Source: a virus. From it: a DNA stretch of 32,949 nucleotides. The position numbers and the translations under genes are program-made. Below the pieces are notes generated by a model, which saw nothing but the letters and a program-made list of their open reading frames with translations, was not told the origin of the DNA and ran no database searches. The stretch covers positions 1 through 32,949 of the IMG/VR virus record IMGVR_UViG_3300033893_000019. The stretch is one strand, 5' to 3'. Below, piece by piece: positions 2,511-22,083 of this stretch (position 1 is its first letter; every line of letters starts with the position of its first letter).

Positions 2511-5500
2511 TCACCGATGTGTTCGCGTGTCGCTCGGCATCGGCAGCCGGCGGGCGAACAGGCAGAGGTGGTCGTAGGCCCAGATCTTGATCAGGCGTAC
2601 GCGGGTGCGGCGGGCGTTGAGGTAATCGCGTTCGAAGGGCCAGCCGGCATTGAAGTTGCCCATCAGGTACCGGCAGGCGGAGCTGGGCCACGAGAGAACC
2701 TGGAAGGGATAGCCAGCCATCCAGCGCACCTTGTCCAGGTTGCGGTCCAGGCCAGCGAACTGGTGGCCCTCGATCGCGAAGGTGTCCAAGCCTGAGGCGT
2801 CCTTGGTTTCCCACTCTGGTGGTAAGTTCACGTAGCGGTTCAAGCGCCGCGTCATCGGGTCATTCACATCGAGCGGCCACAGCAGCTCGAAGCGGGCATT
2901 GGGGTGTGAGGTCAGTACGTGCGCCCGGATCGCGTCCACGTGATCCTTGACGGCCTGGCGAAGGAAATTGGCGTCCACGTAGCCGTTCACCGAGGGGTCG
3001 TCGTTGGGAGTTTGGAAGACGTGCAGCGCTCGGCCGTTCTGCTGATAGAACCGGGCCGTCGTGTAAGCATCGTAGTAGGCTATGCCCGAGGAGTTGGCGA
3101 AGTACCACCAGAGCACCTCACCGAATTGGAGGCGCGCGGTGAGGCCCGCCGCCTCCATCACGGCGGCCATCTCCTGGTGGGCTCGCTTGATGTAATCCCG
3201 GAAGGGCGGCGCGAACGTGCAGTGGGCCGAATACAGGCTCCCGAAACCCGTGGCCGTGAGCACCGGCTCGCCATCGGGGTAGCGCGCGATCCAGACCGCA
3301 TCCGGTGGATCATCGGGCGGCAGCACCAGCTCCTGGCTGAACGCCGCCACACAGCTCATTCCATAGCCGGCCAACTCCGCGAAGTAATCGGCGTGCCAGT
3401 CGCGCGCAGCGCGGTTCAGTACGGGGCTGGCCGAATCGTCAATCACCCAGTCGCCCATCACGCCGCCCGAAAGCGATCCCTCCACAGTCACCGTGCCTTG
3501 GGCCGAGTTATGGCTCTCGGAGAAGCTGAACGAGTAAGCGGGTGAGCGGACGGTAATGGTGAGCACGGCGTGCGAGGCCTCGGCCCAGACGCCCACGAAG
3601 ACGGCGTTGATGTAGTAGGCGAAGTGCTCGGCGATGGTCTCGGGCGTGTCCGCCGGGAAGACGCTTTTGCCGATGGTCGTGCCGCCGATCGTAAGAAAGG
3701 CCTCGTCGCCGCCCTGCCAGGTGCCGCCGTAGGTGACCGTGACACTCGGAAAGAATCCGCCGACGCGCTTCCGCTGGTTCCACCAGAAGACCGAAACGTA
3801 GTGATTGATCTCGCCGATCAAGCCCAGTTTGCGGATGGCCCAGACGAGACGCTGCGGCGGCAGCTTCCAGGTATGATCGGTACCGTAGTCGCACGCCACG
3901 GCCACGTCGGTGCGCAGCTCGGGCGCATCGGGCACGTCCGAGGGAACAGCGCACTCCAGGAAATCGAAGTAAAAGTACCAGCCCTGGCTGTCGGGGTTCT
4001 TGCTTCCGGTCAGCCGGATTTTGACGGTATGTTGACCGGCACTGACGTTACCGAAGAGCTTCCGGCGGACCTGCCGAGCCCGGGCAGCAATCTCATAGCA
4101 GTCGAGCTGGATCCAACCGCCACCATCCAGGCGCGCCTCCATGATGCCGCAATCGAAATCGAGCCGCGTGCCCAAGTAGATGTCATGGACCGCCGAGCAG
4201 TGCGTTTCCACGGTCGCCGTGGCGCCCTGCTGCGCGGCCCGCTTGGCGCGTCCGCGGCTCCACCAGTTGGCCGGCGCCCACTCCCAATAGCCCGAGTAGT
4301 TCACCCAGGCGTCGTCTTCCTCGATGCGCACGGACCCGGGGCCCGCGACCTTGAGCGCCCGCTTGCCCAGCGTGTCGCTGACGGTCCAGTTCGAGAAAGT
4401 GGCTTCCCATTCCTGCGGCTCGTAGGCTGCGGAATTGGCGAGCTTCGGCGCGAACGTCAGCCAGATCTTCTGAAGATCGGTGAGGCCCTCGGCAGAGAAG
4501 TTGATCGTGATGCGCCAGGTGGCGTCGGAGGATCCGCCCTGAAGCTGGAGGACGTGAGGAGTGAAGTACAGGTTCGCGTTTCTGTGCAGCTCATAGAGGC
4601 GGATCATGTTGCCGTCCTCGCCCGGGCGGGCGGCGCGAATCGTCAAGGTCTCTCCGCTGGCCTCGGCCTGGAGCGGGATGAGTACGCCGGCGCCTGGCCA
4701 GTCAAAGCCGTTGATCTGATCTGCGATCGCCTGGCAGATGAGGGAAGCGGTGATGCGCTGGAGCGTGGCCGGCGCAGATCCATCTGAGCTGGACACGTTG
4801 ACTGGTCCGTTCTGGCCGGCCCGCAGCGTGATCGTGATCTCGTTTCCGTACTGGCCGCCTGTGGCGGCCTCGCAGTAAGGGTCGTTCGCGTTGATCTGGG
4901 CCGCGATGGCCTGGGCGATCTGGGCACTGTTGAGTGCGTCCTCGAGCACCGAGTAAGTGGCGTTGCCGATTTGCACCCAGTGCAGGTAATTGCGATTGCC
5001 CTGCCACCACATGGCTTGCACGCCGCTTGTGGTGAACTCGGGCACGATGTAGTCGAAGGCGATGTTCTGATACCACAGGGTGACGCGGTCGTATGGTTGG
5101 AGGCCGTTGTCCACCAGGGTGAACGCGCCTTCTGCCTTCGCGTAAGTTCCACCCACTTGCTCGGCGCGGTCGAACAGGCGCAATGGCACGAGCGTGCCGT
5201 CGGTTTTGAGGCAGTTCAGGAAGGGCCAGTCAATGGTGGGGTACTTGGGAGAATCAATGGGCTGGAGGTTTTCGTAATGCAGGTCGAAGGTGAGGGTGAT
5301 GCCGGAGAAATCGCCGTCAGGCAGGTAGGAGAAGCGCGGGTGGCCGAAGAAATCGTCGCGGTCCCAGAGGACCAGGACGCCGAAATCGGCGGCGTCGCGG
5401 AAGACGCCGGAGACCTTGAATCCGGTCTCGGTGGCCGAGTGCAGGGCTGCGGCGGCGCCGAAACCGGAAGCGCCCTGAAGGTGGAGGGTGCGGGTGGGTT

Positions 5501-5522
5501 GTAGTTTATAGGTGGTCTCCAT
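2511..5522 (-). CDS. Large distal tail/fibre-like protein with possible TIM-barrel glycosidase-like C-terminus
   Basis: A protein of about 1,003 residues, the last gene of the tail operon, where fibres and receptor-binding proteins usually sit. The N-terminal third is beta-rich with repeated QAIAAQINAND-like modules, typical of tail proteins that assign values to a field. The middle contains a carbohydrate-binding-like beta-sandwich (about 390-560). The final 350 residues look like an alpha/beta barrel, with FGEVLWWYFAN carrying a candidate acidic residue, then LLWPLDVNDP. This recalls the glycosidase-like barrels of gene-transfer-agent and siphophage tail tips. The start at ATG 5522 is preferred over a GTG at 5561, with GGGAAG as ribosome site. 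Host recognition or surface-glycan processing is inferred. Confidence 0.6.
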   Translation of the reverse strand: METTYKLQPTRTLHLQGASGFGAAAALHSATETGFKVSGVFRDAADFGVLVLWDRDDFFGHPRFSYLPDGDFSGITLTFDLHYENLQPIDSPKYPTIDWPFLNCLKTDGTLVPLRLFDRAEQVGGTYAKAEGAFTLVDNGLQPYDRVTLWYQNIAFDYIVPEFTTSGVQAMWWQGNRNYLHWVQIGNATYSVLEDALNSAQIAQAIAAQINANDPYCEAATGGQYGNEITITLRAGQNGPVNVSSSDGSAPATLQRITASLICQAIADQINGFDWPGAGVLIPLQAEASGETLTIRAARPGEDGNMIRLYELHRNANLYFTPHVLQLQGGSSDATWRITINFSAEGLTDLQKIWLTFAPKLANSAAYEPQEWEATFSNWTVSDTLGKRALKVAGPGSVRIEEDDAWVNYSGYWEWAPANWWSRGRAKRAAQQGATATVETHCSAVHDIYLGTRLDFDCGIMEARLDGGGWIQLDCYEIAARARQVRRKLFGNVSAGQHTVKIRLTGSKNPDSQGWYFYFDFLECAVPSDVPDAPELRTDVAVACDYGTDHTWKLPPQRLVWAIRKLGLIGEINHYVSVFWWNQRKRVGGFFPSVTVTYGGTWQGGDEAFLTIGGTTIGKSVFPADTPETIAEHFAYYINAVFVGVWAEASHAVLTITVRSPAYSFSFSESHNSAQGTVTVEGSLSGGVMGDWVIDDSASPVLNRAARDWHADYFAELAGYGMSCVAAFSQELVLPPDDPPDAVWIARYPDGEPVLTATGFGSLYSAHCTFAPPFRDYIKRAHQEMAAVMEAAGLTARLQFGEVLWWYFANSSGIAYYDAYTTARFYQQNGRALHVFQTPNDDPSVNGYVDANFLRQAVKDHVDAIRAHVLTSHPNARFELLWPLDVNDPMTRRLNRYVNLPPEWETKDASGLDTFAIEGHQFAGLDRNLDKVRWMAGYPFQVLSWPSSACRYLMGNFNAGWPFERDYLNARRTRVRLIKIWAYDHLCLFARRLPMPSDTRTHR

Positions 5523-5547
5523 ATTGCTTCCCGTCGTCTGCGCGGGC

Positions 5548-5587
5548 TTGACGCGGTGCACGAATGTACATACACTAGGACCAGTGT
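5548..5587 (+). promoter_or_regulatory. brnTA promoter with overlapping operator
   Basis: TTGACG at 5548-5553 and TACACT at 5571-5576 are spaced by 17 bases. An inverted repeat, ACACT (5572-5576) and AGTGT (5583-5587) around AGGACC, covers the -10 box and the expected start point. A second palindrome, ATGTACAT, lies at 5564-5571. The expected transcript start (about 5583) practically coincides with the GTG start codon at 5584, so the mRNA may be leaderless. BrnA antitoxins repress their own operons in known systems, so this is the likely BrnA site. Confidence 0.55.
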
Positions 5588-10597: not shown

Positions 10598-13500
10598 CTA
10601 CGTGATGACCAAGCCAGGACTGAATTGCAGAGCGGCCAACTCTCGCCGCCCCGCGTTGGCGCGGGTGGCGCTGAGGGTTGCCGACTGCACCGCGCGCGGG
10701 TTGTCCACCACCACGCGCACGGTCTCCTTTTCGAAGAACTCCTTGGCCCCTGGCACGCTGATGTTGATGACGATGGGGCCGGTGGCAGGCGCGCCCGCGG
10801 CGATGCGATCGAGGGTCGCTGTGGCGCCTGCGGTGAAGGTCTGCTGGTAGAGCATGCCGCCTTGCTGAATGAGCGACACCGGGCGCACCGTGGGCGGCAG
10901 GCCAGCCGTGCTCTGCCCGGTCGTCATGGCGTACAGCTCGATGAGATCGCGGACCTGCTGACTGCGGATGGCGGCATCCAGATTGCCGCCGAAAGCCTGC
11001 TTGGCGGTCTCGACGATCTGGCGCAGAATGCCCTTGTCGCGGACATCGACGCCGTAAGTGGCGCGGATTTTCTCGCGGGCTTTCTCCTCGGCGCTCTTCA
11101 CGAACAGGCGAGCGATGCCGGCGATTGCCCCAATGCCGGCGCCGATCGCCGCGCCCAGCGGCCCGCCGTACTTGAAGCCAACCATCGCGCCGCCGGCCGT
11201 GGTCATCGCGAGGCCGGAAAGCCCGCCGCGCTGGAGGCCGGCCAGGGCCAGCAGACCACCTCCCAGAGCCGCGGCGGGCGAATGGCCGATGGCCGAGAGC
11301 TTCTGGGCCAGCGTAGCCGCTTGCCAGGTCGTGGCCATGCCGGGACCGAGCTGGACGCTGCCGCCAATGCCCCGGAATTCGCGCCACCCGCCAGCAAGTC
11401 CCGCCAGCCAACCGCGCCAGCCGCCGCCTCCCGCGGGCACGAAGGGCGGCGTTCCCCAACCTCCCGCGGCACCGCCAGGAATGGGACCGGCGGCGGCTAG
11501 CGCGGGCCCCAAGACCAAGCCCCCAAGTGAGGCTCGGCCAGCGGCTCCTGCAACCGGTATGCGCACACCAGCGAACAGTTCCATGAGCATTGCCGCCACG
11601 CGCGAGGTCACGATCTCTTTGATGGCCGTCAAGACCGCGGTCTTCAGCGCATTGCCAATGGCCGCAAACACCGACTGGGAGCGGGTCAGCAGTGCGTCGA
11701 AGACACCCTCGGCCTGCCGCTTGAGCGATTCGAAGATCTGCCGGTTGTGATCGCGGATGAGCTCGGCTTGGCGGATGGCGGCATTCTCCCGCGCGGCTTG
11801 GATGGCCGCCTCGGTAGCCTCCTGCTGCTGGCGTCGGATCTCTTCGCGTTGCTGGGTGAGTTCAGCGATGCGCGCTTGGATCTCATCGGCACGGTAACCC
11901 AGCCGGCGCAGATTGGCTTCTTCTTCCAAGACCATGCGCGAGGTCTCCAGATCAAACAGCCGCTGCTTGATCTCGTGGACGCGCTCGAGGTACTCGATCT
12001 CGATCGCGGCCTTGCGCTGCTCGAGGGCCAGCTTCTGATCGAGCGTCTGCGCGTCCGCGGCCTCGGCCTGGCGCAACTGAGCATCGCGCACCCAGCCGGC
12101 GCGCTCAAGTTCGAAGCTATAGACCTGCTCGGTGTGCTCGAGCGCCCGCCGCGCCGCATCTTCCTGATAATCGAGCCGGCGCTGGTAAAGCTCGGTCTCC
12201 CAAGCCAGCCGTTGCTCGTACTCTTCCCGGTAGCGCTTGAGCGTCTCCTCGATGGTTTCCTTCTGTAGACCACGCAGCTTGGCTTGAAGCTCGCGCTCGA
12301 GGTTGTGGCGGGCTTCGGCAAGCAGCGTGAATTGATGCATCGCGCCGTGCTCATCGACAAAGGTGGTCAGCCGCTGGGCCTCGCGCTGGAGCTCGAGCAC
12401 CACGCGCGCCGGTCCTTGGAGCGCTTCCGCTTCCGCGGTCAGGGCGCTTTCGCGCGTTGCGCGCACCGCCTCGATCTGGCGCTTGCGGATCTCGGCGGCC
12501 CGCTCCAGGTTCTCGAGATCCGGCGCGGCTTCAAGCCTGACCTTGGGCCCGGGGACCTCAAAACTTTCCTCGCCGGGCAAGGCCCGCCGGCCGGCGACGA
12601 GCTCGCGCAGTTGCTCGTCCGTCATCCCGCGCCGGCGCAGCTCATCCAGGCTGACCTTGCCGGCCAGCAGCTGCATGCGCAGTGCGCGCCGTTCCATTTC
12701 GCCGAAGCGCGCTTCAACCTCTTCCTGACCACGCTTCCATTGCGCATAGACGGCCATGCCGGCGCCCACGGCGGCGACGCCCAATAAGGCATAGGGGTTC
12801 AGGGTGGCCAGATTGAGCGCCGCGATTGATTTGGCCAGAGCCAGGATCTTTTCTGCGAGCTTGTACGCGGCGAAGGCGGCTCCTACCGCGGCTACCGCTT
12901 GAGCGAGCTTGACCAGACCGTCGGCGTTGTCGTGCAGCCAGCTCACCAGCTCACGCAGGTGGCCAAGCAGCGCCACCAGATCGCTCTGGAAGCGGGCGCC
13001 GATCTGCTCGCGGAGGTTCTGAAACTCACGCCGGAGGGCGCCGAGCTGACCGGCCGCGGTCTGCATGACGGCAGCATGCGCGCCCTGGATCTTGGCGCCC
13101 TCGCGCATGATCACGTTGTAGCGGAGCTGCTTCTCCTCGGCTTCGGTGAGGGCGCGGCCCAACCGGAGCTGCTCGGCCAGCGCCTCGCGCTCGAAGTTGA
13201 CGAACAGCCCCAGGCTGCGCAAGCCGCGCGCATAGCCGGACTCGATCGCCATGATGATGGTCTCGAGCGCCTCGCCGGCGGCCACATTCTGGATGGCGGC
13301 TGCGTCGTTGGCCAGCTTCGCCAACCCCTCCGCCTTGCTCAGATCCAGGTCGGCAATGAGAAAGCGCTTGACCGCCTGGGCGGCTTCGTTGTACTCGAAG
13401 CCGATCTGCTCGATGGCCTCCACATGTCGGGCCGCCGCCGCGGCGCTTACCCCGTGCGCTTGCGCCATGGCGCGCACGCCCGCCTCGGCCTTGGCGTTTT

Positions 13501-13762
13501 GGGCCGCCAGCATCGCCGAGCCGGCGGTAAACTCCTTGACCCAGCCGAGGGCGCGCTCGATCGCACCGGCGAGCAGGTTGCCGGCGGTAGCGCCCTTGAC
13601 GATGGCCGCGGTCATGCCGTCAATGCTGCGGGAGGCGCGGCGCGCTGCGCTGACGGCAGTGGTCTCGATCGAGGACAGGCCGGCGTTGACGCTCTTGATC
13701 GAGGCGTTGGCCTTCTCGGTATCAACGGTGACGATGAGTTCGAGCTTGTTGTCAGCGGGCAT
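10598..13762 (-). CDS. Tape measure protein
   Basis: A 1,054-residue tail-length ruler. It starts with a TMP-family N-terminus (ELIVTVDTEKANASIKSVNAGLSSIE). The region at about 280-345 is hydrophobic (VAAVGAAFAAYKLAEKILALAKSIAALN...GVAAVGAGMAVYAQW). Long charged coiled-coil segments follow through the middle (RYREEYEQRLAWETELYQRRL and similar). A glycine/alanine-rich hydrophobic stretch lies near 820-895 (YGGPLGAAIGAGIGAIAG). This is the standard make-up of siphophage tape measures, which thread the tube and help DNA cross the inner membrane. It lies downstream of the G/GT chaperones as expected, with the DUF6883/DUF4926 cassette in between. It ends at TAG 10598-10600. Confidence 0.93.
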   Translation of the reverse strand: MPADNKLELIVTVDTEKANASIKSVNAGLSSIETTAVSAARRASRSIDGMTAAIVKGATAGNLLAGAIERALGWVKEFTAGSAMLAAQNAKAEAGVRAMAQAHGVSAAAAARHVEAIEQIGFEYNEAAQAVKRFLIADLDLSKAEGLAKLANDAAAIQNVAAGEALETIIMAIESGYARGLRSLGLFVNFEREALAEQLRLGRALTEAEEKQLRYNVIMREGAKIQGAHAAVMQTAAGQLGALRREFQNLREQIGARFQSDLVALLGHLRELVSWLHDNADGLVKLAQAVAAVGAAFAAYKLAEKILALAKSIAALNLATLNPYALLGVAAVGAGMAVYAQWKRGQEEVEARFGEMERRALRMQLLAGKVSLDELRRRGMTDEQLRELVAGRRALPGEESFEVPGPKVRLEAAPDLENLERAAEIRKRQIEAVRATRESALTAEAEALQGPARVVLELQREAQRLTTFVDEHGAMHQFTLLAEARHNLERELQAKLRGLQKETIEETLKRYREEYEQRLAWETELYQRRLDYQEDAARRALEHTEQVYSFELERAGWVRDAQLRQAEAADAQTLDQKLALEQRKAAIEIEYLERVHEIKQRLFDLETSRMVLEEEANLRRLGYRADEIQARIAELTQQREEIRRQQQEATEAAIQAARENAAIRQAELIRDHNRQIFESLKRQAEGVFDALLTRSQSVFAAIGNALKTAVLTAIKEIVTSRVAAMLMELFAGVRIPVAGAAGRASLGGLVLGPALAAAGPIPGGAAGGWGTPPFVPAGGGGWRGWLAGLAGGWREFRGIGGSVQLGPGMATTWQAATLAQKLSAIGHSPAAALGGGLLALAGLQRGGLSGLAMTTAGGAMVGFKYGGPLGAAIGAGIGAIAGIARLFVKSAEEKAREKIRATYGVDVRDKGILRQIVETAKQAFGGNLDAAIRSQQVRDLIELYAMTTGQSTAGLPPTVRPVSLIQQGGMLYQQTFTAGATATLDRIAAGAPATGPIVINISVPGAKEFFEKETVRVVVDNPRAVQSATLSATRANAGRRELAALQFSPGLVIT

Positions 13763-13795
13763 GCGCGGGCAAGAACTTGTTAGGATGAACGATTC

Positions 13796-14131
13796 GTGAA
13801 GCTTCCCAACCCGGAATTAGCCATCGTGGATATCGGCAAGCTGCGCGACTACTGTTTGAATCCCAAGCATCCGCGGGGGCGACACAAGGCCAGGGTGTTC
13901 GCATCGGTAGGGATTCACCAGACGGACGCAGTAAAGCTGCAGTCAGCGCTGCTTTGGGCAGCCCTTCACTGCGAAGCGGAGAGCGCTCCGCCAAGTCCTT
14001 ACGGCGAGCGCTACATCGTGGATTTCGACTACCCCGGGGCAGAGCGCCCGGTGAGGATTCGCAGCAGTTGGATCGTGCGCGCAGGTGAGGGAATCCCACG
14101 CCTGACGAGCTGTTATGTATTATCAAGGTGA
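13796..14131 (+). CDS. DUF6883-family protein
   Basis: A 111-residue protein with the signature I associate with DUF6883: N-terminal KLPNPELAIVDIGKLRDYCLNPKHPRGRHKARVF, a helical middle, a strand YGERYIVDFDYPG, and a C-terminus VRIRSSWIVRAGEGIPRLTSCYVL. The biochemical function is not known to me. The GTG at 13796 has an AGGA site about ten bases upstream. It is transcribed against the late operon from the 33-bp gap between it and the tape-measure start, and overlaps the following gene as GTGA. DUF6883 genes often precede DUF4926 genes in bacterial genomes (from memory), which suggests a two-gene unit, perhaps toxin-antitoxin-like. That role is inference. Confidence 0.7.
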   Translation: MKLPNPELAIVDIGKLRDYCLNPKHPRGRHKARVFASVGIHQTDAVKLQSALLWAALHCEAESAPPSPYGERYIVDFDYPGAERPVRIRSSWIVRAGEGIPRLTSCYVLSR

Positions 14132-14139
14132 GGTTGGTC

Positions 14140-14358
14140 ATGGCGGAAATCGCACTCCATTCGGTGGTGGCGCTGCTTGAAGACCTGCCCGAACAAGGTC
14201 TGGTCCGCGGGCAAGTGGGGACGGTGGTGGAGGTTTGGGCACCTGGGGTTTACGAGGTCGAATTCAGTGACGATGACGGGCGCACGTATGCCCTGGCGTC
14301 GCTCAAAGCCGAGCAACTGATGCGGCTCCATCACGAACCTGTCCACCAAGCCGCTTGA
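14140..14358 (+). CDS. DUF4926-family protein
   Basis: A 72-residue protein matching the small SH3-like DUF4926 pattern: VVALLEDLPEQGLVRGQVGTVVEVWAPGVYEVEFSDDDGRTYALASLKAEQLMRLH. The ATG at 14140 is preferred because AAGGTGAGG lies six bases before it. A GTG at 14128, overlapping the DUF6883 stop, is also possible. It is translationally coupled to the DUF6883 gene and ends 24 bases before the convergent end of the GT gene. The pairing and the mobile-cassette placement suggest that the two proteins act together. No enzymatic residues are evident; a small beta-barrel partner (antitoxin or inhibitor) is a guess. Confidence 0.7.
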   Translation: MAEIALHSVVALLEDLPEQGLVRGQVGTVVEVWAPGVYEVEFSDDDGRTYALASLKAEQLMRLHHEPVHQAA

Positions 14359-14382: not shown

Positions 14383-15302
14383 TCAGGCATTGCGCCTCGA
14401 ACGCTCTTCTTCCCAGCGCGCCTGCTCTTCTTCGATGATGAGCAGGGCCTGGAACTCATCCGCGGCGATCTCATCCAGTGAGAGGCTGACGCCCAGTTTC
14501 AAGGCCGTTCGCAGATCGAGCGCCCGGCGCAGGAGTTGGCCCGCCTCGGAGTTTTGCGCGCCATCCAAGCGGTCGAGCGGGCAATGGTCGCAACGGCCGC
14601 CGTCATCCGGTGCGTCCGGGCACAGTCGTGGATCGCAGAGTTGCTCCCGCCGCAGCGACCAGTAGACCAGGTAGCGCAGGGAGGGCCGCTCGGGCCACTC
14701 CCCGCTCAGCAGTTTCCCTCGCGCTCCTCAAAGCCGGCCTCGAGCGCATCGATGGCCGCCTTCACTGCTACCGCTTGGTGGATGATCGGGACGGCGCCGG
14801 CGTAGCCCTCGCTCGTCTGGCAGAGCTTCTGATACAGGGTGCCGGCAGCGGCCAAGTTCACCGTCAGCTCCTGGCGGTTGAAGGGCAGATCCAGAATGCG
14901 GGCAAAACCGCGGCGATACTCGATCACGTCTTTGGCGCTCGGCATGCGTAGCACGTGTTCGGTCATCCCACCGGGCACGCGCAGAACGACGCGGAACCCG
15001 CCCGCCTCCTCGAGCACCTCGTCCACATCTGCCTGGCCCAACTGCTCGATGATCCGGCTGGCTTCATAGGCGTCCAGTTCATCACCATCATCCAAGCGGA
15101 TCTTAGCGAACAAGGCAGCATCCACCTCTTCGGCGTTCGGGATCGTCGTCTCCGAGACGCCGCGCCCCAGATGCTTGATGATGATCTTGCGGCGCCGCTG
15201 GCGCTCGATCCACTCCTCATCGTTCGGGAAGCGGACCCTGACCGTACGCGCGCCCTCGGCGGAGCGAAGCTGCACGTGGATTTCTTTTTGTGAATCGAAC
15301 AT
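14383..15302 (-). CDS. Tail assembly chaperone GT (programmed -1 frameshift product)
   Basis: Predicted 306-residue product. It comprises 197 residues of G read in frame 0, then 109 residues in the -1 frame after slippage at GGGAAAC (14712-14718). The -1 frame is open from the slip site to TGA 14383-14385 and has no convincing start of its own: its only early candidates lie well inside it and would cut the cysteine motif. The extension reads LLSGEWPERPSLRYLVYWSLRREQ, then a C-x4-C ... C-x2-C cluster, then an acidic helical tail. In lambda the G and GT proteins made this way wrap the tape measure and recruit tube subunits. Position just before the tape measure and just after the tube gene fits exactly. 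Confidence 0.85.
14679..14718 (-). promoter_or_regulatory. Programmed -1 ribosomal frameshift signal
   Basis: The slippery heptamer G GGA AAC lies at 14718-14712, phased as X XXY YYZ to the G reading frame. It is followed by a nine-base spacer and a GC-rich stem-loop at 14702-14679: GGGAG, one bulged U, GGCC, loop CGAGC, GGCC, CUCCC (nine base pairs). The frame-0 stop TGA is only one codon after the slip site. Lambda uses the near-identical heptamer GGGAAAG at the same gene junction. Confidence 0.85.
14706..15302 (-). CDS. Tail assembly chaperone G (frame-0 product)
   Basis: A 198-residue protein made by normal termination at TGA 14706. The sequence is acidic and helical, with KEIHVQLRSAEGARTVRVRFPNDEEWIERQRRRKII near the start and a region DVIEYRRGFARILDLPFNRQELTVNLAAAGTLYQKL later. 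It has no catalytic motif, in keeping with a chaperone that is absent from the mature virion. The ATG at 15302 lies three bases after the tube-gene stop. An extended start at 15380 would overlap the tube gene and is unlikely. Most ribosomes should produce this form and a minority the GT form; the ratio matters for tail assembly in characterised phages. Confidence 0.8.
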   Translation of the reverse strand: MFDSQKEIHVQLRSAEGARTVRVRFPNDEEWIERQRRRKIIIKHLGRGVSETTIPNAEEVDAALFAKIRLDDGDELDAYEASRIIEQLGQADVDEVLEEAGGFRVVLRVPGGMTEHVLRMPSAKDVIEYRRGFARILDLPFNRQELTVNLAAAGTLYQKLCQTSEGYAGAVPIIHQAVAVKAAIDALEAGFEEREGNC

Positions 15303-15304
15303 GG

Positions 15305-16336
15305 CTATCCGATGTTGTCCTGAGTGGTTTTGGCCACCGCCGTGAGCAGGCCGTTGGTCGCATCCCACAGCGGCGTGCACTCGACCTCGATGGTCACGAT
15401 GCCGTCGGTATCGCCGACCACCGCGGTCCGGAAGGCAACCTTGTGGAAGCTCACCTCGAGCGAGTGGTAATCGCTACCCGAGATCAGGTCGCCCTGAAGG
15501 CCGACTACGGCCGTGCCGGTGGTCTGGTTGCGGAGCTTGGTCAGTTCAGTTGAGCCGTGCTCAAAGCGCGCCACAAACTTGAGCGAGGCCTCACGGTCAC
15601 CGAACTCCATCCGGCCGCGGATGGCCGCGCCGTCCTGTGTGCCTGAGCCAGGGTAGAAGCCCGAGTCGAGCCTGAGATTATTCTTGAAGCCCAGCTCGAG
15701 CGAGACCAGGTTGCGGCTGGTGACATAGTCCACGCCGTTGATGGTCACCTGAGCGCTGGCGCCGGGCAGCAGATGCTCGGTAGTGCCCGCCGGCAGTGTG
15801 ATTCCGCTCGGCTCCACCAGTTTCCCCGAGCCGGCGAAGTGGATTGCGATACGCGAGTTGGCCCGACCCGGCCCCGAGCCGATCGTGATGGTGAAATCCT
15901 CGATCACGCAGCCCACCGCCATGCGGTCGAGCACCGCGCTCGCGCCCGGCCGGATCTGCTCGACAAAAGAAAACGCCGGCAGCTCAATGCCGCCCGTAAC
16001 CGGATCCTGCGGGGTACAAGTATAGGTGATCGCGGGCGGGGTGCCGCTCTTTGTGCGGCCACCCAAGCCAAAGACGAACGCCCAGGCGGCGATCTCACTG
16101 GTGAGAAACTTCTCGATTGAGCCGCTCACGTCCCAGTGGGATTTGAAGACTTGCGTGGCGAACTCGTGCCCTTTGCCGAGATCGGCGGCATCGTTTTCGG
16201 TGTTCAGCGTCACGGTCGCAAGCGCGGCGTTGGTCTTGGTCAGGCTCCAGAGGTCACCGGAGACGTTGGGCGTTGACAGATCGGTCTGTTTCTTGTAACC
16301 AAAGCCGATCTTGGTTTCGCGAATGTTGGCGGGCAT
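15305..16336 (-). CDS. Major tail tube protein
   Basis: A 343-residue protein of the Phage_tube type. It has an N-terminal arm (ANIRETKIGFGYKKQTDLSTPN), two beta-sandwich halves with repeated VTLNTENDAADLGKG- and EVSFHKVAF-like strands, and an internal loop TSRNLVSLELGFKNNL. Tube subunits stack as hexamers around the tape measure. It sits directly before the G/GT chaperones and after the tail terminator, exactly the lambda order U-V-G-GT. At about 340 residues it is longer than lambda gpV but typical of two-domain tube proteins. The ATG at 16336 follows the terminator gene's stop by one base. Confidence 0.85.
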   Translation of the reverse strand: MPANIRETKIGFGYKKQTDLSTPNVSGDLWSLTKTNAALATVTLNTENDAADLGKGHEFATQVFKSHWDVSGSIEKFLTSEIAAWAFVFGLGGRTKSGTPPAITYTCTPQDPVTGGIELPAFSFVEQIRPGASAVLDRMAVGCVIEDFTITIGSGPGRANSRIAIHFAGSGKLVEPSGITLPAGTTEHLLPGASAQVTINGVDYVTSRNLVSLELGFKNNLRLDSGFYPGSGTQDGAAIRGRMEFGDREASLKFVARFEHGSTELTKLRNQTTGTAVVGLQGDLISGSDYHSLEVSFHKVAFRTAVVGDTDGIVTIEVECTPLWDATNGLLTAVAKTTQDNIG

Positions 16337-18126: not shown

Positions 18127-19131
18127 TCAGGCCTTGGTCGCCCGGACCAGCACTTCGGGCCGGTGGCAGATGGGCAGCGGGTTCGATTGCGTGTGCAAAT
18201 CGGTCCCCCGGCCGAACTTGCGCGGCTCCTGCTTGGCGTAGAGGGGCAGGCCGAGCGTGTTGGCGGTCTCGTTGAAGTCCGCCGGGGCAAAGTAGGTGCG
18301 GAACGTGGTGGCCGTGCCCAGCGGGAAAAAGTGCGCCTCACCGTCGGCGATGAACTTGCGCACGGTGCCGCTGGAGTCGGTCGCCTGGCCGCGGTACTCT
18401 TCAAACGTCACCCCGCCGAAGGTGAACCCGGTGCGGTTGTCCGAGAACAGCACCAGGCCCTCGCGCCAGCGCTGGTAGGCTTCCTTGACCTTGGGGTGCG
18501 TGGTCAGCGCGTCGAAGAAGCTCGGCGAGCACAGGCACATCACGCCGGTCATGAACTCGCCCTTGAGGTTGTCCTCGATGTGCCGGCGGACCTCGAGCAC
18601 CTTGAGCAGCACTTCGGTCGAGGCCGTGGTCAGGGCGAAGTTCACCACCTTGGGCGTGATCTCGAACTCCTGGTAGAGGTCGTAGAGGGTGGAGCCGTCG
18701 GCATCGAGGATCACGCCCTTGAGCGCGCCCATGCGCAGGTGCTCGAGCGTGATGGCGTGCTTGGCGCGCATGGTCTGAAGCTTCTGGGCCATGAGGTTGG
18801 CCAAAGCGTCCATCTCGGTCTCCGAGCCGAAGGCGCGGATGCCTTGGACCTCCTCGGGCAGCACGACATCGTCGTGCGGAATGTGCGGGATGACGAACGA
18901 GCGCACCTTGCGTTTCGCCTGCGTGCCCACCGTACCGGGCGAACCCACCGGACGCGTGGGGAGCAGGTTGAGCACGCCGTTCATCTCCTCGATGATGATG
19001 GTGCGCGTGCGGACACCGACGGGCGGAAACAGGTTCAATTGCTCCAGGCGCCCGTAGGTGTTGGGGATCTTGTTGATGGCGGCCGTGAGGGCCGCCATGT
19101 CGAAAGCGTCGGAAGAAAAAGGATTCAGCAT
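18127..19131 (-). CDS. Major capsid protein, gpE family
   Basis: A 334-residue protein similar to phage lambda gpE (Phage_cap_E, HK97 fold; lambda gpE is 341 residues). The landmarks are the N-terminal segment AFDMAALTAAINKIPNTYGRLEQLNLF, the VRTRTIIIEEMNGVLNLLPT strand, a GSETEMDALANLMAQKLQTMRAKHAITLE helix, and the C-terminal RTYFAPADFNETANTLGLPLYAKQEPRKFGRG segment. It assembles the icosahedral head around the scaffold. The gene follows the decoration protein with only three bases between them, so they are tightly coupled in the late operon. Confidence 0.95.
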   Translation of the reverse strand: MLNPFSSDAFDMAALTAAINKIPNTYGRLEQLNLFPPVGVRTRTIIIEEMNGVLNLLPTRPVGSPGTVGTQAKRKVRSFVIPHIPHDDVVLPEEVQGIRAFGSETEMDALANLMAQKLQTMRAKHAITLEHLRMGALKGVILDADGSTLYDLYQEFEITPKVVNFALTTASTEVLLKVLEVRRHIEDNLKGEFMTGVMCLCSPSFFDALTTHPKVKEAYQRWREGLVLFSDNRTGFTFGGVTFEEYRGQATDSSGTVRKFIADGEAHFFPLGTATTFRTYFAPADFNETANTLGLPLYAKQEPRKFGRGTDLHTQSNPLPICHRPEVLVRATKA

Positions 19132-19843: not shown

Positions 19844-20644
19844 ACGTCTGCCTCCTTGCGCAATTGAAGTTGGTCTTACGAATGCGGCCAGATCGGCGAG
19901 CGCCGTGCGGAAGGTGCCCGTGCGGTCGGCCAAGCCGGCGGCCACGGCGTCGGGGCCGTACTTGAGGGCAGCGCCCAGTTGGCGCACGGCCTCAGAACTG
20001 AGCGGGCGGCGGCTGGCTACGGCTTCTACGAACAGCCCGTAGAGCCGCCGGACTTCGGCCTCAAGCGCCGCCCGCGCCGCCTCCGACAGCGGCTCGTTGG
20101 GGTTGCCGTCGGTCTTGCCTTCGCCCTCGGCGATGTAGGTGACCTTGACGCCCAGCTTGCGGTTGTACTCGCTCCAATCCACGTGCTCGGCGTAGACCCC
20201 GATCGAGCCGGCGCCACCGGTGAACTCGGGCACATAGATCCGCTCCGCCGCTGTTGCCAGCAAGTACGCTGCGCTGAACATCGAATTATCGGCCACGGCC
20301 CAGATCGGCTTCTGGCGCGCCAGTTCGGCCAGCGCGGCTGCGGTCTCGAAGGCGTTCTCCGAATCGCCGCCCGGCGAATTGACGCGCAGCAGAACGCCGC
20401 GCACCTCGGGATCAGCGATGGCCTGCTCGACCTCCTCAAGGATCTCGCCGTAGGCCGTAGCGCCCAACAGGATCGCATCGAACAGCGATGGCTCGTTGGC
20501 CAGCACGCCGGCCACATCAACCACGGCCACACCGTCCTGAACCGCATATGGCCTGCGCAAGCCGTAAGTGGCTTCCAATTTACCCACCTCAACCAGCAGC
20601 GGCTTGGCGCCCAATAGGCGCAGGACCTGTTCGCGTCTCCTCAT
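19511..20644 (-). CDS. S49-family prohead protease with C-terminal scaffold domain (gpC-like)
   Basis: A 377-residue protein. Residues about 30-265 form an SppA/S49 serine protease. The LRVNSPGG motif lies at 86-93, the candidate nucleophile is Ser124 (SMFSAAYLL), and the partner lysine is Lys177 in the GEGKTDGNP loop. Residues about 268-377 form a helical scaffold domain. As in lambda, the protease matures the prohead and is itself consumed. The gene overlaps the portal end by four bases. An internal start for the scaffold alone lies at 19843. The complete catalytic pair suggests an active enzyme. Confidence 0.9.
   Translation of the reverse strand: MRRREQVLRLLGAKPLLVEVGKLEATYGLRRPYAVQDGVAVVDVAGVLANEPSLFDAILLGATAYGEILEEVEQAIADPEVRGVLLRVNSPGGDSENAFETAAALAELARQKPIWAVADNSMFSAAYLLATAAERIYVPEFTGGAGSIGVYAEHVDWSEYNRKLGVKVTYIAEGEGKTDGNPNEPLSEAARAALEAEVRRLYGLFVEAVASRRPLSSEAVRQLGAALKYGPDAVAAGLADRTGTFRTALADLAAFVRPTSIAQGGRRMKEETVRAEVPEPTIDLEAIRAEAHREGYAEAREIVELCALAGLPARAAALLAKHARAAEARQYLIEARAAEDAPEIRSHVMPETATSAKVPLEQNPVIKAVERLAKGGN
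19851..19858 (-). promoter_or_regulatory. Strong internal ribosome binding site for the scaffold
   Basis: The minus strand reads CAAGGAGG within the protease reading frame, seven bases before ATG 19843. This decides the internal start. Confidence 0.75.
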
Positions 20645-22083
20645 GACTCCTCGCTGTCCTCGCTCGAAGGGTCGGTGTCGTAGCTGAGGCCCAGCTCCCG
20701 GGCCCGTGCGTTGTCGGCCGCGATCTCCCGATCAATCGCCTCGGCATCGTAACCTTGCTCAGAGACCACCTCGGCACGACTCTTGAACCCTGCCCGCACC
20801 GCCATGATCTGCGCTTTGATGTCCTTCAAGGGATCGACCCAGGCAAAGCCCGGCGGAATCCACTTGGCGTCGTAGTAAAGCGCTACGTCGCCTTGCTTGG
20901 GCAGAGCGCCACTCACTAGCGCCGCCTCGATCCAACGCCGCCACACCGGTCGGCAGAACTGGTAGACGAGCACCTGGTGCTGGAACTGCTCGCAGCGGCG
21001 GCGGAACTCGAGCAGCCCGGCACGGATCGAGGAGTAGTTGACGCCGGTCAGATCCCCGGTTAACTGCTCGTAGGTGATCCCCATGCCGGCGGCAATCGAG
21101 CGCAACTGCACGCGCATGAAGGTCTCGTAGCTGGCGCCCACGTCGGCCGGGGTGGAGAACTTGATGTCCTCGCCCGGCAGCAGCACTTGAAGCGTGCCCG
21201 GCTCCAGACCCGCCAGGGCGGCGCCGCTTTGATCCGTCACCGTCTCGCCCAGCATCTGGTCCTCGGGGGCGTTCTTGAGGATGAAGCCGGCAAACATGGC
21301 CGCCGTCTTCTTCCGGACCAGCTCGGCATCGTCGTACTGGTCGAGCTCGTAGAGCTTCACCAAGACCTGGGTAAGCCACGGCTGGCCGCGCAACTGGCCG
21401 GGCCGAATGGGGCGGAACAGGTGCAGCACCGAATCGGCTGGCACGCGCACCAGCTCGGTCGAGGCCACTGGGTTGAGCGTGTCGAAAGGATGTTCGCGGT
21501 AGAGCCAGTAAGCCACGCGCCGCCCGATCTGGTCAAACTCGATGCCCGCGCGAACGTAGTTGCCGTTCTCGAGCTTTCTCGTCTCGCCCGTCGGTAGATG
21601 CTCGGCTTCGAGCAACTGCAGCTGCAAGGGAACCGTCAGGCCGTCCTTGGGCAGGCGCGGCCGCAGCCGGATCAAGCACTCGCCGGCCTCCATCACCGCG
21701 CGGCAGGCCAGCGCCTGAAGGCCGTAGAAATCGGTCAGATTGCTGGCGTCGGCCTCGTCGGTCCAGCGCAGCCACAACTCTTGAATCCGCGCCTTGAGCC
21801 GCGCATCCGGATGGAGCGACTGCGGCTTGATGCCCGTGCCGATGGCGTTGGCCACGAAGGCATCGAGCGCGTTGGCCGCCCAGGGATTGCGCCGCACCAT
21901 GTCGCGCGAGCGCGCGCGCAGCGTGTCCAGATTGCGGAAGACGAGCGTGTTGATGTCGCTGGTCGCCGGCAGCCAGCCGGTGGTGCGGCGCGTGGCCGCC
22001 GCGGCCTCGTAATCAGCCGCTGCCCGCCGCCGGGGCCAGGGGGCGCCCCTCACCGCTGCCTGAAGCTGCTTCCAGAAACCCAC
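20641..22083 (-). CDS. Portal protein, gpB family
   Basis: A 480-residue portal of the lambda gpB/Phage_portal_2 family (lambda gpB is 533). Recognisable segments are the N-terminal TLRARSRDMVRRNPWAANALDAFVANAIGTGIKP, the LQLLEAEHLP strand, HLFRPIRPGQLRGQPWL, and the GMGITYEQLTGDLTGVNYSSIRAGLLEFRR helix region near 340-380. Twelve copies form the vertex through which DNA enters and leaves. The C-terminus is short and acidic (SSEDSEES). It overlaps the downstream protease by four bases and follows gpW by three bases. Confidence 0.95.
   Translation of the reverse strand: MGFWKQLQAAVRGAPWPRRRAAADYEAAAATRRTTGWLPATSDINTLVFRNLDTLRARSRDMVRRNPWAANALDAFVANAIGTGIKPQSLHPDARLKARIQELWLRWTDEADASNLTDFYGLQALACRAVMEAGECLIRLRPRLPKDGLTVPLQLQLLEAEHLPTGETRKLENGNYVRAGIEFDQIGRRVAYWLYREHPFDTLNPVASTELVRVPADSVLHLFRPIRPGQLRGQPWLTQVLVKLYELDQYDDAELVRKKTAAMFAGFILKNAPEDQMLGETVTDQSGAALAGLEPGTLQVLLPGEDIKFSTPADVGASYETFMRVQLRSIAAGMGITYEQLTGDLTGVNYSSIRAGLLEFRRRCEQFQHQVLVYQFCRPVWRRWIEAALVSGALPKQGDVALYYDAKWIPPGFAWVDPLKDIKAQIMAVRAGFKSRAEVVSEQGYDAEAIDREIAADNARARELGLSYDTDPSSEDSEES

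Follow-up and report, generated by a model that had tools for sequence, protein, structure and literature searches.

A probable lambda-type G/GT tail assembly chaperone gene with a −1 frameshift signal and a four-cysteine T extension in Acidobacteriota prophages

Introduction

Phage lambda makes two products from its G/T gene: gpG and the rarer fusion gpGT both bind the tape measure protein, the T part binds the tube protein, and the molar ratio of gpG to gpGT is ~30:1 (PMC5009743). The gene lies between those for the major tail protein and the tape measure protein, and T is reached by a −1 slip on GGGAAAG just ahead of the G stop. The G/GT frameshift has been kept across long-tailed phages despite low sequence similarity, and G_GGA_AAC is a reported G-T slip site of the haloarchaeal phage HCTV-1 (PMC5009743). 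HK97 has a −1 frameshift pair, gp13/gp14, 5′ of its tape measure gene, and a same-strand ‘moron’, gp15, between T and that gene. In P2, a contractile-tail phage, the frameshift tail gene E+E′ is found just 5′ of the tape measure gene, and the E′ extension is ~57 aa long.

Here we describe a locus of this layout in a 32,949-nt stretch of DNA, referred to as the window, which is a prophage of a soil Acidobacteriota bacterium. As in lambda, the gene stands between the major tail and tape measure genes and the −1 slip site lies just ahead of the G stop, and as in HK97 and P2 the frameshift pair is 5′ of the tape measure gene. The window T extension is similar in size to that of lambda. Its slip site is GGGAAAC, where lambda has GGGAAAG, and it is followed by a strong hairpin; the heptamer is identical to that reported for HCTV-1, a likeness of heptamers that reaches an archaeal host. 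Unlike the HK97 gp14 and P2 E′ extensions, neither of which has cysteines, window T carries a conserved cluster of four. The initial annotation did not count such a cluster among the known features of lambda gpT, and lambda T in fact contains no cysteine at all. We consider it very likely that the locus is a lambda-type G/GT tail assembly chaperone gene with a programmed −1 frameshift, the T cysteines forming a predicted metal site.

Results

The minus strand of the window is a siphophage-type head and tail operon. It encodes a lambda-family portal (20641-22083), capsid protein E (18127-19131), a tail protein that is probably the major tail (tube) protein (15305-16336), G (14706-15302), the T extension (14383-14712) and a 1054-aa tape measure protein (10598-13762), after which come tail-tip genes. 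G and T are thus located between the major tail and tape measure genes. The protein upstream of G was identified from its PHROG tail family (phrog_290 ‘minor tail protein’, E 1e-10) and its position directly 5′ of G, and the tape measure protein from weak PHROG tape-measure matches, length and position. G itself, tail assembly chaperone-like, has 198 aa followed by a stop, with ~80% mean column identity over 25 relatives.

The G gene ends in GAG GGA AAC TGC TGA, which places the heptamer G_GGA_AAC at 14712-14718 in the G frame and the TGA stop at 14706-14708, one codon past it; both the phase and the position that had been annotated from the outset are correct. A second TGA at 14728-14730 shuts the −1 frame 5′ of the heptamer and confines the shift to 14727-14709, a 19-nt interval in which the heptamer is the only X_XXY_YYZ sequence. 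From there the −1 frame is open for 109 codons, from 14712 to 14386, up to a stop at 14385-14383, so translation bears out the 109-codon frame and the 306-residue fusion (197 + 109) of the initial annotation.

Among relatives drawn from IMG/VR, from GTDB genomes and from the host’s own relatives, a canonical X_XXY_YYZ heptamer is present at the junction in 96 of 104 distinct T-frame sequences: CCCAAAC in 70, AAATTTT in 17, GGGAAAC in 6, AAATTTC in 2 and AAAAAAC in 1. L050 has its AAATTTT shifted to 31 nt before the stop. Six of the 104 have AAGTTTT, CAGTTTT or AAGTTTC in place of a strict heptamer; T_TTT or T_TTC, at or near the stop in these copies, might still let a single tRNA slip. The remaining copy, L045, is a member of a separate clade. 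An in-phase XXXYYYZ occurs within the last four codons of G in 40 of 45 distinct G loci; over the rest of these genes, 10 of 8278 codon positions carry one (~0.1%). AAATTTT sits one codon further on than CCCAAAC or GGGAAAC, which indicates that the slip site was not merely inherited but disappeared and arose anew, with the register of the −1 frame preserved.

The T frame has no internal stops in 32 representatives, the other two frames mostly do, and T is under purifying selection, with a median pN/pS of 0.25 in closer pairs. A GEWPE-PSLR stretch a few codons past the slip is nearly invariant. The initial annotation named relatives lacking both the heptamer and the open −1 frame as evidence against a frameshift, and among clade A relatives, as distinct from the sister clade described below, none of this kind was found. 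The draft state of the genome (392 contigs) and a 1-nt deletion at the junction of one sister-clade locus, L216, might suggest that the frame break reflects decay or an assembly error in a once-continuous gene. We regard this as extremely improbable, since independent assemblies show the same break and frame relation in more than 100 distinct sequences, and the coding sequence on either side of the break is under purifying selection.

We found no conserved start codon near the junction among the relatives, and most of the AAATTTT group has no ATG, GTG or TTG within ~40 nt of it. In the window, the longest −1-frame ORF with a usual start begins at TTG 14568, encodes 61 aa and starts past the cysteines, which agrees with the warning in the initial annotation that gene callers would report only a short fragment; standard callers would miss the N-terminal half of window T. 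Because the −1 frame is open and selected without a conserved start codon, a slippage fusion is, as judged from the sequence, the only simple route to translating it. The competing reading is that T is a separate gene coupled to the end of G, with no fusion, starting at CTG 14712, CTG 14709 or TTG 14568. The two CTG codons are present in the window, CTG 14709 recurs in many CCCAAAC relatives, the overlap of the G stop with the next frame resembles translational coupling, and sister-clade junctions have an ATA or ATG overlapping the stop. However, the AAATTTT group has TTT-TTA at this place and its usual start codons come ~30-80 nt later, inside or beyond GEWPE-PSLR; TTG 14568 would omit the cysteines; and a separate start gives no reason for a heptamer kept through sequence changes. 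An own start for T is very unlikely, and we reject it for clade A in favor of the frameshift.

The nine-pair stem with a bulged U and a nine-base spacer that the initial annotation drew after the slip site can be found, but it is only the core of a putative stimulatory hairpin of 12 pairs (14676-14705), with the bulged U at 14697 and a spacer of 6 nt from the heptamer. The window hairpin does not stand out from dinucleotide shuffles (z −1.2) and is unusual when set against synonymous-codon shuffles (z −2.7, p 0.007). Over the family, the 48 nt after the G stop fold more stably than shuffles that keep protein and codon usage (mean z −1.5), the strongest value being at this offset, and folding z is near zero or positive from ~70 nt onward. 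The covariation score of the hairpin, based on counts of named pairs, is 0.071 compared with 0.037 in shuffles, with none of 500 shuffles as high, and in L012, L040 and L043 a G-C pair between the third bases of a Gly and a Ser codon, both synonymous positions, has become C-G. Some members (e.g. L011, L014) have a weakened hairpin, so the structure appears helpful and not universal; a downstream stimulatory structure, a common but not universal trait of the G/GT class, is present here. The programmed −1 frameshift from G to GT is therefore strongly supported by a slip site conserved through changes of heptamer and by an open, selected −1 frame, and also by the lack of a conserved start, by synonymous constraint on the hairpin together with some covariation there, and by the gene order.

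The cluster of T reads C-x4-C-x9-C-x2-C (residues 26, 31, 41 and 44; 14581-14637, minus strand), as the initial annotation had noted in part. The four cysteines are invariant in 27 aligned representatives and present in 99 of 104 T sequences, the exceptions being four copies truncated at contig ends and the distant L045. Over the family the spacing is C-x4-C-x8 to 11-C-x2-C, with both cysteine pairs retained. The initial label ‘zinc-ribbon-like’ is in keeping with the presence of the cysteines in all complete clade A copies and with a rubredoxin-like expansion in the sister clade; it goes too far in that no zinc-ribbon model matches the window protein, and a search for a Pfam zinc family in window T gave no match. 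An AlphaFold model of T is mostly helical, with a mean pLDDT of 84 that falls to ~63-77 around the cysteines.

We think it probable that a single metal ion, with zinc the likeliest candidate, is bound by the four cysteines in the N-terminal part of T, which would stabilize this part of the protein. We give appreciable weight, well short of an even chance, to the alternative that, with the frameshift real, the cysteines form a disulfide or iron-sulfur site or play a purely structural role without metal. The low model confidence around the cysteines is compatible with this, as is a sub-threshold match to the 2Fe-2S domain FhuF_C in 3 of 27 members (E 0.16), an identity for T that we weighed and did not rely on. 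The cytoplasm is reducing, which makes disulfides unlikely, and C-x2-C pairs together with the rubredoxin-like expansion of the sister clade are typical of zinc or iron sites. In the titles and opening abstract text of the papers listed on tail assembly chaperones and zinc, no such site is described. Conserved cysteines bound to a metal, as we predict for T, would suggest that T domains can be metal proteins, a feature absent from the lambda, HK97 and P2 extensions checked.

The sister clade comprises L045, L047 and 80 IMG/VR loci (L149-L228), and its T is homologous to that of clade A (hhalign probability 98.9%). Here T has an insert of ~26 residues between the third and fourth aligned cysteines, with an extra C-x2-C, that is rubredoxin-like (CRKCGYS...LDGCPACGADW) and matches Zn_ribbon_LapB and RUBY_RBDX weakly, below the curated cut-off. 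The insert supports a metal site at this position of T in both clades. No canonical X_XXY_YYZ heptamer is found at the sister-clade junction. Just before the GDWPE codons, G ends in GAC-CCG-GAA followed by TAR (TAG or TAA) or TGA, and the last G codon is GAA in 67 of 67 cases, compared with 32% of Glu codons in these genes. A GC hairpin ~6 nt past the stop persists in copies that lack 3 nt of its arm and loop; compared with synonymous shuffles, its folding energy does not clearly stand out (mean z −0.65). Sister-clade T may arise through a −1 slip at the stop, or its translation may begin at the overlapping ATA or ATG codon. A bolder proposal is that recruitment of the tail tube depends on T as a zinc or iron module, which the sister clade has built up into a rubredoxin-like ribbon, and that in this clade GAA-TAR just before the hairpin is a non-canonical recoding site, so that a homologous junction has switched recoding mechanism; taken as a whole, we find this rather doubtful.

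Pfam and PHROGs scans of G, T and all aligned relatives gave no significant family, and tblastn and blastn against 50,697 phage records found no relatives of G or T; matches to cyanophage helicases were due to chance (E ~4). A sequence search of solved structures returned chance matches only, and comparison of the AlphaFold T model with the PDB and with viral models gave no fold match, a resemblance to interferon gamma helices (best Z 4.3, VIA) not being meaningful. The model of G is poor (pLDDT 49), too poor for a structure search. Profiles of G and T did not match lambda G and T in hhalign, a homology that membership in the class does not require. As read from these searches and the architecture, the locus is of the known G/GT class and its family is new to the libraries searched.

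Among 396 sampled genomes of the phylum, the T profile was found in only 2 besides the window’s own, so the family looks confined and not widespread. The named matches are Acidobacteriota MAGs (Bryobacterales, Bryobacteraceae, Solibacteraceae). The window genome belongs to the same family as G028, whose T protein is that of JAKOTR010000032, an Acidobacteriota MAG.

Discussion

Established directly here are the signal and its conservation, a −1 frame under selection, the order of the genes and the retention of the cysteines. From the sequence we infer slippage itself and a rate at which most ribosomes would end at the TGA at 14708-14706 to give the 198-aa G. A minority, paused by the hairpin at 14705-14676, would slip one base back at the heptamer G_GGA_AAC and continue in the −1 frame as far as 14386, which would yield a GT fusion of 306 aa. 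On the lambda model, the tape measure protein would be coated by the G moiety, and the tail tube subunit would be recruited through the small number of copies that carry T. Since G and T are not similar in sequence to their lambda counterparts, and no solved structure was matched by sequence or fold, the proposed chaperone role of G and T rests on position and architecture; the gene order and signal are as in lambda, which makes the same role the natural reading.

A probable chaperone family absent from Pfam and PHROGs, mostly from prophages of uncultured Acidobacteriota, thereby joins the frameshift-encoded tail proteins. Its ~100 natural variants of the slip region, with five canonical heptamers, a few near-misses and the hairpin, are a good natural experiment on what bacterial ribosomes tolerate.

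The gap between T and the tape measure gene is a hotspot for cargo insertion. Of the 82 relatives in which the start of the tape measure gene could be placed, 50 have that gene overlapping or directly adjoining T. The other 32 carry 0.27-3.0 kb of inserted DNA between the two genes, often with the cargo on the opposite strand (L002, L003, L012, L020, L058, L085, L088, L106, L113, L116, L132, L134 and others). This place is equivalent to that of HK97 gp15, which differs in being on the same strand as its neighbors. The window insert (13784-14358, plus strand) is a DUF6883 (E 1e-24) and DUF4926 (E 2e-27) pair, a putative toxin-antitoxin-like or moron arrangement. Other cargo includes a PIN toxin with an AF2212-like partner, a UvrD-like helicase and, below the cut-off, NERD/HSDR-like (restriction-like) nucleases. 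Elsewhere in the window, 3′ of the tail genes, a 1016-aa protein (2511-5561, minus strand) matches a non-contractile tail sheath TIM-barrel family (PF23845, E 1e-21), a match that is unexpected for a lambda-like siphophage operon.
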